A stretch of 64,000 bases of DNA from Paraphaeosphaeria minitans (lineage: Eukaryota > Ascomycota > Dothideomycetes > Pleosporales > Didymosphaeriaceae): assembly GCA_015832175.1 (NCBI GenBank), contig WJXW01000003.1, positions 1,364,001 to 1,428,000 on the forward strand. Direction: 5' to 3'. Within the stretch, counting starts at the first letter, position 1; every line of letters begins with the position of its first letter. The notes beneath the pieces are model-generated. The model did not search any database. It was not told the DNA's origin and saw nothing but the letters and a program-made list of their open reading frames with translations. The position numbers and the translations under genes are program-made. Positions 22,362-24,996 of the stretch are shown one piece after another.

Positions 22362-22370
22362 AAAAAGAAA
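22362..22370 (-). terminator. RNA polymerase III terminator of tRNA-Asp
   Basis: On the minus strand TTTCTTTTT directly follows the tRNA discriminator base. A run of five T is a standard polymerase III stop and supports this locus having been built as a transcribed tRNA gene. Confidence 0.7.
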
Positions 22371-22508
22371 CTCTCCCTCGGGGAATCGAACCTAGCCAAT
22401 GTTAGAGTAGGATCCTTCGTGATAATATCGTTACAAACATACCCCGGTCTCCCGCGCTCGAAATCTTGCGTTGACAAGCGGAAATCATGACCACTAGACC
22501 AAGGAAGA
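22371..22508 (-). tRNA. tRNA-Asp(GTC) with two intervening segments
   Basis: Read on the minus strand from 22508. Acceptor stem TCTTCCT (22508-22502) pairs fully with AGGGAGA (22378-22372, one G-T pair), with discriminator G at 22371. The A box is TGGTCTAGTGG. The anticodon stem TCCGC/GCGGG encloses the loop T-T-G-T-C-A-C with anticodon GTC at 22475-22473. A 15-nt intron (22471-22457) follows A37, the canonical place removed by tRNA endonuclease. The T-stem CGGGG/CCCCG and T-loop TTCGATT are interrupted by 51 nt (22442-22392). Without both insertions the molecule is 72 nt with all four arms, as expected for tRNA-Asp. The B box GGTTCGATTCC is intact because the G that ends the insertion replaces the displaced one. 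A T-run terminator follows. Confidence 0.88.
22392..22442 (-). other. Spliceosomal-type intron inside the tRNA T-arm (51 nt)
   Basis: On the minus strand the insertion starts GTATGT (22442-22437), contains CTCTAAC (22407-22401) and ends GGCTAG (22392), 9 nt after the CTAAC branch motif. These are the 5' splice site, branch site and 3' splice site of a normal short fungal mRNA intron, and 51 nt is a typical length. Excision joins CCGGG to GTTCGATT and restores the T-arm exactly. I have no evidence that it is spliced. It may be a recently inserted introner-like element. Confidence 0.75.
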
Positions 22509-23110
22509 CTTGTTTAGTAATTGAAGTTGTTTTTCTTTAATATTCTCATATACACAGATTTTGAACTTAGAAACTAAAACGGCATAGGTTTGTTGAAATC
22601 ACAAGACGCATATTGCCAGTTTGTGGAACCGAGATACAAGCCCCGCGGCTAACAGAGCTTACATTTACGTGCGTGTGGTGTTAGGACAAGGTATTGAGGC
22701 CCAGAACGCGCGCAAGTACAAATCAATAGCAGGTCGTCACGCGCGAAACGCCTTCAGCTGCATGGCACTTGTACAGTATCACTCCAGGTAACAAGAGCCA
22801 CAGATCATCGAAGCCATAATGTATCGCCACATTCGAGCCGCTAATTCAGGTAAAATCCATAGCGGTAGATACCGGACGAAAGGTTTTCTCTACACGCATA
22901 TCCAGAAGGCAATGAAGCCTCGGTGCCTTGCGCACAGTTCCACAGGTCAAGAACTGTCCTCAGCGAGCGCGTTGTTGAAGAGAGCACGGTTCACGCGCAG
23001 GATCTTTTCAAGTACCGCACGCTGAGTCATGCGCTAATGAGCGCTTGGCGGCCACCCGACCTCAAAACTTCTCCTGCGCGCGCTCCCTGCCTTCTCTCCT
23101 CCATGACATT
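22509..23110. other. Intergenic region upstream of MRS6
   Basis: Balanced-composition non-coding DNA. The last 50 bp before the MRS6 ATG are rich in CT, as is common in fungal 5' leaders. Short frames here (for example near 22819-23147) have no family resemblance. An out-of-frame ATG at 23103 precedes the chosen start. Confidence 0.4.
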
Positions 23111-24996
23111 ATGGACACACTCGATGGCACCTACTGGGACGTGGTGATCGCAGGCACCGGCCTGCAGCAGTGTTTACTTGCCCTGTAAGTGTGATGCACT
23201 AAAAACAGGTCGTTTCGCAATCTGACTGACGCAGCACGTGAAGAGCATTGTCGCGCTCGGGCAAGAAGATCCTCCATGTCGACGAGAACCCCTATTATAG
23301 CGGCTCTGCTGCGGCTTTCAGTATTTCAGAGGCCGAAGCATGGGCAGCCAAAGTCAACGCGGGCGTGTTCCACGCGGCCTTCACCAAGGCATCCATACAC
23401 GTGCCAGAGCCTTCAGAGTCAGACACACCTATGCTCTCGCGGAGACCGGGGAGACAATACAACCTGGCGCTTGCTCCCGAGATCATCTACTACAGCTCGG
23501 CATTTAGGCGTCACTTGGTGACCTCTCAGGTCCACCACCAGGTCGAGTTTCTTCCCGTTGGTAGTTGGTGGGTGTACTCTTCGCCTGGTACGAGTGGATC
23601 GGCCACTGGCAGCCTGGAGAAGGTGCCCAACACACGTGAGGACCTGTTCGGAAACAGTACCCTCGACTTTCCGGCTAAGCGCAAGCTCCTCAAGATTCTT
23701 CGCTTCATCGTGTACCACGAAAACGAAGACGAAAAGGTCAAGTGGGAACAGCATCGGGCGTTGCCTTTCTCTGACTTCTTGTCAACTGTTTTTAATGCCC
23801 CAAGCATCCTGTCGGCGCCGCTGCTTGCTCTCACCATGTCAACACTGAGCCCTGATTGTGTTACTACAGAGCATGCGTTGCCTAGGATAGCACGCCACTT
23901 GCGATCTTTTGGCACACTGGGCCAATTCAGCGCGCTTGTTCCCAAGTACGGTGGACTGGACGAATTTTGTCAGGTCGCCTGCCGTGCCTGCGCTGTTGGA
24001 GGCGGAGTGTATGTCCTTGGGAAGGGCCTTTCTACTTCCCACGACTCCATTTCGACGGTGCAGATTCCCGTCGAGAACCTGTCCGAATCGGGAATAGATG
24101 CCACAAACGATGCGAAATCTGACATCGATACTGCTGTCGCGAGCCAACCTCCGACTGCAGTGGCAGAGCATGTCCCCGGCGTGAGGCTTCACTTGAAAGA
24201 TGGGGAAGCTGTTACTGCGCGTTGGATAGTGGGCGAAAGCCCACCAGTCAACAGTGAAAGTCCGCTTTGCAAGTCCGTCACTATCGTATCTTCATCGCTA
24301 TCCACACTGTTCCTCCCTGTCATAGTAGAGGACAGATCTTTCCAGCCAGGCTCTGCCATTCTGGTCTTCCCATCAGGCTCGCTGTTCTTGCCAGAGGAGC
24401 TAGATGGCCACGGAAGTCTCCCCCCAGTGCATATCCATGCTCACTCCAGCGAATCAGGGGAATGCCCTGCTGGTCAAAGTAAGTCGTCACCCGTTCATCC
24501 CCCGTATGCCTTCATGATGATCGATTTTTTGAATACTTATCTACATTGTCCGAATTACATTGACGATATATATCCTCTGACAAACTGATATTGGCAATAC
24601 TTTCTGTTCCGATGAAACGTCGCGAGATCATGCAACAAAAGCTGACATTTCACAGGCGTACTGTATGCTTCCACGAGCCTGAGTGGCAAGCGCGGCTTCG
24701 AGCTTCTCAGACAAGCAACGGATCGTCTGCTGGCAAGCTTGGACGCTTCGCCGTCGCCGAATACTCTCTGGTCCATGCAGTACGAACAACGTGCGATGCC
24801 TTCTATAATACCATTGCCCATTCCGGATGGTGCGAGCGCTCACTTCCTCGGCGTGCCTCCTGTACCGCTGGATCTGGTTGTTGACGACGTTGTGTTGGAC
24901 CGCGTGCGAACTCTTTGGCAAACGATCACGAATCAAGATCCCGAGCAATTCTTACAGTTCAAGAACCGAGAAGCTGAAGATGCTAATGACTTGTAA
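23111..24996 (+). CDS. MRS6: Rab escort protein (Rab geranylgeranyltransferase component A), Mrs6-like
   Basis: Presents newly made Rab GTPases to geranylgeranyltransferase II so that their C-terminal cysteines are prenylated; acts in the cytosol and on membranes in vesicle traffic. Three exons (23111-23184, 23244-24478, 24656-24996) give 549 residues. Exon 1 has W-D-V-V-I-A-G-T-G-L-Q-Q, the FAD-like GDI/REP nucleotide fold start. Exon 2 opens A-L-S-R-S-G-K-K-I-L-H-V-D and N-P-Y-Y-S-G. Further conserved boxes are E-F-L-P-V-G-S-W-W-V-Y and L-V-P-K-Y-G-G-L-D-E-F-C-Q. Exon 3 has V-L-Y-A-S-T-S. Intron 1 (59 bp) starts GTAAGT, has CTGAC and ends AAG, which keeps the L-A-L-A-L-S frame. Intron 2 (177 bp) starts GTAAGT, has CTGAC at 24642-24646 and ends CACAG. 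REP rather than GDI is inferred from the long mid-region insertion and length. The gene appears intact and is expected to be essential, as in yeast. Confidence 0.93.

Follow-up and report, generated by a model that had tools for sequence, protein, structure and literature searches.

The textbook division of labor assigns mRNA introns to the spliceosome and tRNA introns to the tRNA endonuclease, and the splicing of mRNA normally goes hand in hand with transcription by polymerase II. A tRNA-Asp gene of the fungus Paraphaeosphaeria minitans, in which one pre-tRNA seems to hold one intron for each splicing system, raises the question of how such a transcript would be processed. The gene lies in a stretch of 64,000 nucleotides of contig WJXW01000003.1, which we refer to as the window. 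An earlier note on this DNA had described a 51-nt insert with GT-AG ends in the T-arm of the gene and a separate 15-nt intron at the canonical site, and we found that the sequence and ARAGORN agree on both (Table 1).

A split tRNA-Asp gene in the window

Removal of the 51 nt restores the T-stem CGGGG/CCCCG, as had been claimed, and leaves a mature tRNA of 72 nt (37 + 14 + 21). The splice signals reported for the insert are all present, with the branch A placed 10 nt upstream of the 3' splice site, and the A box, the B box and a downstream T-run, also described as intact, can be read. By sequence alone the insert junction has four possible registers (3 nt of microhomology), one of which gives GT-AG ends. 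The spliced form had been expected to score as a tRNA, and ARAGORN called it tRNA-Asp(gtc) with a 15-nt intron; the unspliced gene received no call. The Rfam tRNA score of the insert-bearing gene was 24.6 bits, against a gathering score of 29. Within the window, segments combining GTRNGT, CTRAY and YAG at lengths of 51, 52, 53, 57, 62 and 66 occur by chance at a rate of 0 to 3.1e-5 per start position.

A genome search for other tRNA-Asp genes, which the earlier note had proposed, found four more, all uninterrupted and each with an Rfam tRNA score of 45.8 bits, so that one of five Asp genes is split. All five have a 15-nt intron. The note had named a silent pseudogene with normal copies elsewhere as one outcome that would overturn its reading. 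This is borne out in part, since the normal copies exist, but the split gene agrees with all four of them at each of its 72 mature bases.

Table 1. Features of the split tRNA-Asp gene and its neighbor in the window, and inserts of the other split tRNA genes
Feature	Position	Strand	Length	Signals and basis
tRNA-Asp(GTC) gene, two introns	22371..22508	-	138 nt	sequence, Rfam, ARAGORN
Asp exon 1, positions 1-37	22472..22508	-	37 nt	same as in four other Asp genes
Asp canonical intron at 37/38	22457..22471	-	15 nt	ARAGORN on spliced form
Asp exon 2, positions 38-52	22443..22456	-	14 nt	sequence, ARAGORN
Asp spliceosomal-type intron at 52/53 (T-stem)	22392..22442	-	51 nt	missing from four other Asp genes; single-copy
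Asp insert 5' splice site	22437..22442	-		GTATGT; sequence
Asp insert branch-point motif	22401..22407	-		CTCTAAC; branch A 10 nt upstream of 3' splice site
Asp insert 3' splice site	22392..22394	-		TAG; sequence; intron end reads CTAG
Asp exon 3, positions 53-73	22371..22391	-	21 nt	sequence, ARAGORN
Asp A box (internal promoter), uninterrupted	22491..22501	-		by presumed motif
Asp B box	22382..22392	-		GGTTCGATTCC; first G is the final base of the intron; by presumed motif
Asp upstream TATA	22549..22552	-		at -44
Asp terminator run	22362..22366	-		T5
Rab escort protein gene, two introns	23111..24993	+
Rab escort protein, second intron	24479..24655			end CTGACATTTCACAG; placed by homology
tRNA-His, three genes	insert at 53/54			GTAGGT...TACTGAC...ACAG
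Initiator-Met (iMet C1)	insert at 38/39			GTAAGT...TACTAAC...TTAG
Initiator-Met	insert at 46/47			GTACGT...CACTAAC...CACAG
Leu-AAG	insert at 23/24			from B-box survey
Leu-CAG	insert at 24/25			from B-box survey
Ala-CGC	insert at 25/26			from B-box survey
Arg-TCT	insert at 19/20			from B-box survey; unreported by Rfam at E 0.1
Arg-TCG	insert at 18/19			from B-box survey; unreported by Rfam at E 0.1

Introns of the host's mRNA genes

The tRNA-Asp gene adjoins a gene for Rab escort protein (Rab geranylgeranyltransferase component A). The translation of 23248-24588 (+) matched a P. minitans protein with 100% identity across 78% of the query and that of P. sporulosa with 89% identity across 92%, and the last exon was one residue off the P. 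minitans record. Both introns of this gene, placed by homology, start with GTAAGT and contain CTGAC, the 3' end of the first being uncertain.

The window as a whole (1-64000) is AT-rich (A 0.344, T 0.341) with a single ORF of at least 250 aa, and may consist of repeat-rich or RIP-affected DNA. Intron-like stretches are not enriched in it, with 22 found and 18.9 expected from a Markov control. Across 41 loci we counted 27 such stretches against 17.7 expected, 10 of the 27 being the tRNA introns themselves. Without those rows the count was 17 against 17.7, and in nine of the 17 the A lies 10-12 nt from the end. These bulk counts lend no support to a sharing of signals between the tRNA inserts and the host's mRNA introns.

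Split tRNA genes recur across the genome

We searched the genome (47.45 Mb in 30 contigs) and found a GT-AG insert in 12 of 82 nuclear-type tRNA genes or tRNA-like matches, a lower bound from an incomplete survey in which the 82 include a few likely pseudogenes or fragments (e.g. L067). Four mitochondrial-type tRNAs, the uncertain candidate L111 and the 3' fragment L127 were excluded before this count. The inserts occupy nine positions (18/19, 19/20, 23/24, 24/25, 25/26, 38/39, 46/47, 52/53 and 53/54), none of them 37/38, in eight anticodon families. What had been presented as one odd gene is therefore a design that recurs genome-wide in 12 tRNA genes. An assembly slip at one place is probably not the cause, since the same design occurs at twelve loci on seven contigs.

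The survey combined several searches. With the Rfam tRNA family, 62 of 1307 candidates were scored and 58 matches were read; none of the five Asp genes was among its results. Querying the genome with DNA sequences of yeast or generic tRNAs gave no matches. A B-box survey, which is independent of the cloverleaf, used three patterns, each with a control. The pattern GGTTCGANTCCC occurred at 42 places (control, 27), and the 26 new ones that were read gave three new split genes (Leu-AAG, Leu-CAG and Ala-CGC). Two more (Arg-TCT and Arg-TCG) came from GGTTCGANCCCC, which occurred at 27 places (control, 10), 15 of them new and lying in 14 stretches. GGTTCGAAYCC, at 44 places (control, 33), led to 24 new stretches, four of them (L148-L151) judged by eye only, with one new tRNA and zero split genes. 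Genes for Phe, Trp, Tyr and elongator Met tRNAs were not recognized among the tRNA genes read in this incomplete census.

We then consider the families in which every copy found is split. Whole-genome searches with the mature sequence as query, at E values up to 10, found three initiator-Met genes and three His genes, and all six carry inserts; no uninterrupted gene of either family appeared. An unsplit copy should have ranked first. Since the searches give lower bounds, "all" initiator-Met or His genes here means all that were found. Uninterrupted genes for Leu-AAG, Ala-CGC and Arg-TCG are also present in the genome.

The survey also yielded observations on the arrangement of tRNA genes. Some insert sites of different tRNA families form pairs that are offset by a single base, in L119 and L120 (18/19 and 19/20), in L090 and L094 (23/24 and 24/25), and in the window gene and L070 (52/53 and 53/54). 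The split Ala-CGC gene L105 (C7:96142) lies about 2 kb from the unsplit Asp gene L011 (C7:94072), and the Asp gene L010 (C2:417934) lies about 0.6 kb from the Lys gene L033 (C2:418603). In three Val-type loci, L101 (C5:1251 kb), L131 (C2:3545 kb) and L111 (C14:416 kb), the insert at the canonical site or close to it is unusually long; the long-insert Val-type matches are 167 and 146 nt, the insert of L131 is a GC-rich hairpin, and L111 is uncertain and judged by eye only. The tRNA match L038 (C10:840122-840236; 53.4 bits) has an anticodon loop apparently without T33 and an insert with a repeated GTACGAAG element. Four tRNA genes that we read as mitochondrial-type (L022, L025, L026 and L064; G000:C3:2840-2853 kb) are clustered in about 13 kb of a large nuclear contig, which would point either to inserted mitochondrial DNA or to a contig that is chimeric.

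The inserts carry splice signals and their removal restores tRNA sequences

All 12 inserts have GT(A/G)...AG ends and are 49-66 nt long. Each also contains a CTNAY motif, with its A at a distance of 9-12 nt from the 3' end. The weakest branch motif is that of Leu-AAG (CTCAC), and the Leu-CAG insert ends in AAG. A strict splice-motif scan of the 82 genes gave seven hits on the forward strand and none on the reverse, and a medium scan gave 13 forward hits (the 12 inserts and a chance hit, L046) and two reverse hits.

With the inserts removed, ARAGORN called a tRNA in all 12 cases and the expected isotype in 11; the spliced form of the His gene C6 was called Asp, with the canonical intron put elsewhere. 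Left unspliced, five of the 12 genes were called, two of them correctly (iMet C1, and iMet C17 as an intronless 69-nt stretch). In nine of the 12 there is, in addition, an ordinary intron located at 37/38 or adjacent to it; the three initiator genes have none. The GT-AG inserts differ from these canonical eukaryotic introns in position, length and signals. This holds for the intron of iMet C1 as well, which lies one base off the canonical site and has the signals GTAAGT, TACTAAC and TTAG.

We searched seven of the 12 split genes for a strict bulge-helix-bulge motif in all junction registers and found none. In these seven genes the central helix of the motif (4 bp) reached at most three of four pairs, and never together with three outer and three inner pairs. 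Near the 5' splice site of the His genes there is a candidate hairpin.

The inserts lie between the polymerase III promoter boxes

The A and B boxes were assigned by motifs that we take to be those of polymerase III promoters. With the box boundaries read in this way, all 12 inserts lie downstream of the A box and upstream of the B box, and the two boxes of the split genes are 85-114 nt apart. Intron bases can form part of a box or its edge: the first G of the Arg-TCG intron serves as G19, and in Asp and His the last G of the intron precedes the exonic part of the B box. A TATA within 80 nt upstream was present in all 12 split genes and in six of the seven unsplit genes looked at, at -36 to -68 and -34 to -59, respectively. 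A run of at least four T within 40 nt downstream was present in 11 of 12 split and six of seven unsplit genes; the split Leu-AAG gene has none, and neither does its unsplit sister L056. Confinement of the inserts between the boxes, and retention of TATA and T-runs, would follow from selection on the polymerase III promoter.

Splice signals are conserved between two initiator genes

The genes iMet C9 and iMet C17 have identical exons and a 52-nt intron at the same site, and their flanks (about 1.5 kb per side) are unalignable apart from two short chance matches. In this one comparison of two genes, the 5' site, the branch motif and the 3' site together agree at 18 of 19 bases, as compared with 14 of 33 bases of the intron body (Fisher P 1.3e-4). 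Agreement of the signals with divergence of the body indicates that the intron is old and that selection has kept its splice signals. The His introns retain the 5' site, TACTGACTGTA and ACAG, and much of the body too, with 53/66, 46/66 and 47/62 identical columns.

Comparison with known systems

Introns of the mRNA type are known from other non-coding RNA genes. According to PMC8917221, the U6 snRNA of Schizosaccharomyces pombe has an mRNA-type spliceosomal intron in a polymerase III transcript, as we propose here, although it is one snRNA gene, whereas the P. minitans inserts are in tRNAs with internal promoters, in many genes and at many positions. The single U6 match in the P. minitans genome is unsplit. 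PMC11889510 describes GT-AG spliceosomal introns in nuclear 18S rDNA of Ascomycota, including Pleosporales, and reports one case in which removal of a 355-bp intron was seen by RT-PCR; those introns are long and lie in an rRNA gene, whereas the introns of P. minitans are short and lie in tRNA genes. Among tRNA genes, the noncanonical introns of archaea and a red alga resemble the inserts in lying off 37/38 and in that a gene can hold more than one intron (PMC4033280 and PMC8450103).

The literature searched, which left out most subscription papers and all preprints, contained no account of spliceosomal introns in tRNA genes as far as titles, abstracts and passages show, and an earlier report is possible. 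The same is true, on the same basis, of PMC5709842, PMC11782384, PMC6053246, PMC6543705, PMC12621601 and PMC8393795. In tRNAscan-SE 2.0 the search for noncanonical introns is aimed at archaeal candidates, and the main text does not use the word spliceosome (PMC8450103). Searches of viral and prokaryote collections returned nothing, or bacterial and phage tRNAs only.

How the inserts could be removed

Taken together, we conclude from the sequence that the inserts are very probably U2-type introns in nuclear tRNA genes, and that polymerase III pre-tRNAs would be spliced by the spliceosome and then, where needed, by the tRNA endonuclease. The earlier note had offered spliceosomal processing of a polymerase III transcript as one of two readings, and this one has gained strong sequence support from 12 genes of the same design and two families with no unsplit gene found. 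In such a pathway, polymerase III would transcribe the whole split gene, intron included, and the GT-AG intron would be excised in the nucleus by the spliceosome via the 5' splice site, the CTNAY branch site and the AG. Only then would the T-arm or D-arm fold, the cloverleaf form and the ends be trimmed. In the presumed last step, the tRNA endonuclease would cut the 37/38 intron in nine of the 12 genes, a step that the initiator genes would skip.

We considered whether the tRNA splicing endonuclease could instead remove the inserts through a bulge-helix-bulge or a relaxed structure. Archaea and the red alga Cyanidioschyzon have tRNA introns outside the anticodon region, and those of archaea are cut by the splicing endonuclease at bulge-helix-bulge-type motifs (PMC4033280); moreover, an ordinary intron is present in nine of the split genes. 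The strict motif nevertheless failed in seven genes in every register tested, one would not expect such introns to have GT-AG ends and a branch motif at constant spacing, and the bases conserved between iMet C9 and iMet C17 are mostly splice signals, which together make this explanation very unlikely. A further possibility, that the split genes have decayed or fallen silent as pseudogenes beside functional intact copies, is likewise very unlikely. Uninterrupted genes do exist for Asp (four), Leu-AAG, Ala-CGC and Arg-TCG, yet simple decay is unlikely because two tRNA families lack any unsplit copy among those found. Moreover, the split Asp gene matches its unsplit copies exactly in the exons despite 2 to 4 differences in the 15-nt intron, and the boxes, TATA and T-runs have been retained.

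The other reading of the earlier note, an introner-like element in a tRNA gene, would make the inserts a mobile family of spliceosomal introns spreading into tRNA genes. Such elements are reported from Dothideomycetes (PMC4457414), but a genome search that allowed up to 3 mismatches found no further copy of the Asp insert. In a search with four of the 12 introns (Asp, iMet C1, iMet C9 and His C2), the only matches were the introns themselves and His C1. This search missed the diverged introns of His C6 and iMet C17 and speaks to close copies only; within that range, a recent introner family is probably not the source, and we give the introner explanation little chance of being correct. One could also suppose that the inserts are spliceosomal and the split genes are transcribed by polymerase II, the usual partner of mRNA splicing. 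The readable A and B boxes, TATA positions in a range like that of the unsplit genes and downstream T-runs argue against this, and we regard it as improbable. We therefore retain the reading of spliceosomal introns in polymerase III transcripts.

Probable dependence of two tRNAs on the spliceosome

Because every initiator-Met and His copy found is split, the mRNA-splicing machinery is probably required for both tRNAs, which seem to be wholly spliceosome-dependent. We consider it likely, judging from the gene sequences, that initiator and His tRNAs have no source other than polymerase III precursors that need the spliceosome, His needing the tRNA endonuclease as well, and that inserts entered tRNA genes repeatedly and were kept only where both boxes remained readable, with an intron G completing a box at its edge.

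These genes matter for annotation, as 10 of the 12 unspliced forms were either overlooked by ARAGORN or given the wrong name, and Rfam was silent on Arg-TCT and Arg-TCG at E 0.1. Missing or odd tRNAs of other fungal genomes can now be re-examined. If our reading is correct, short polymerase III transcripts would be routine substrates of the spliceosome, and the inserts would document, in nature, how introns are gained by a gene of 72 nt with well-understood positions. Translation in P. minitans would then be tied to the spliceosome from its first step.
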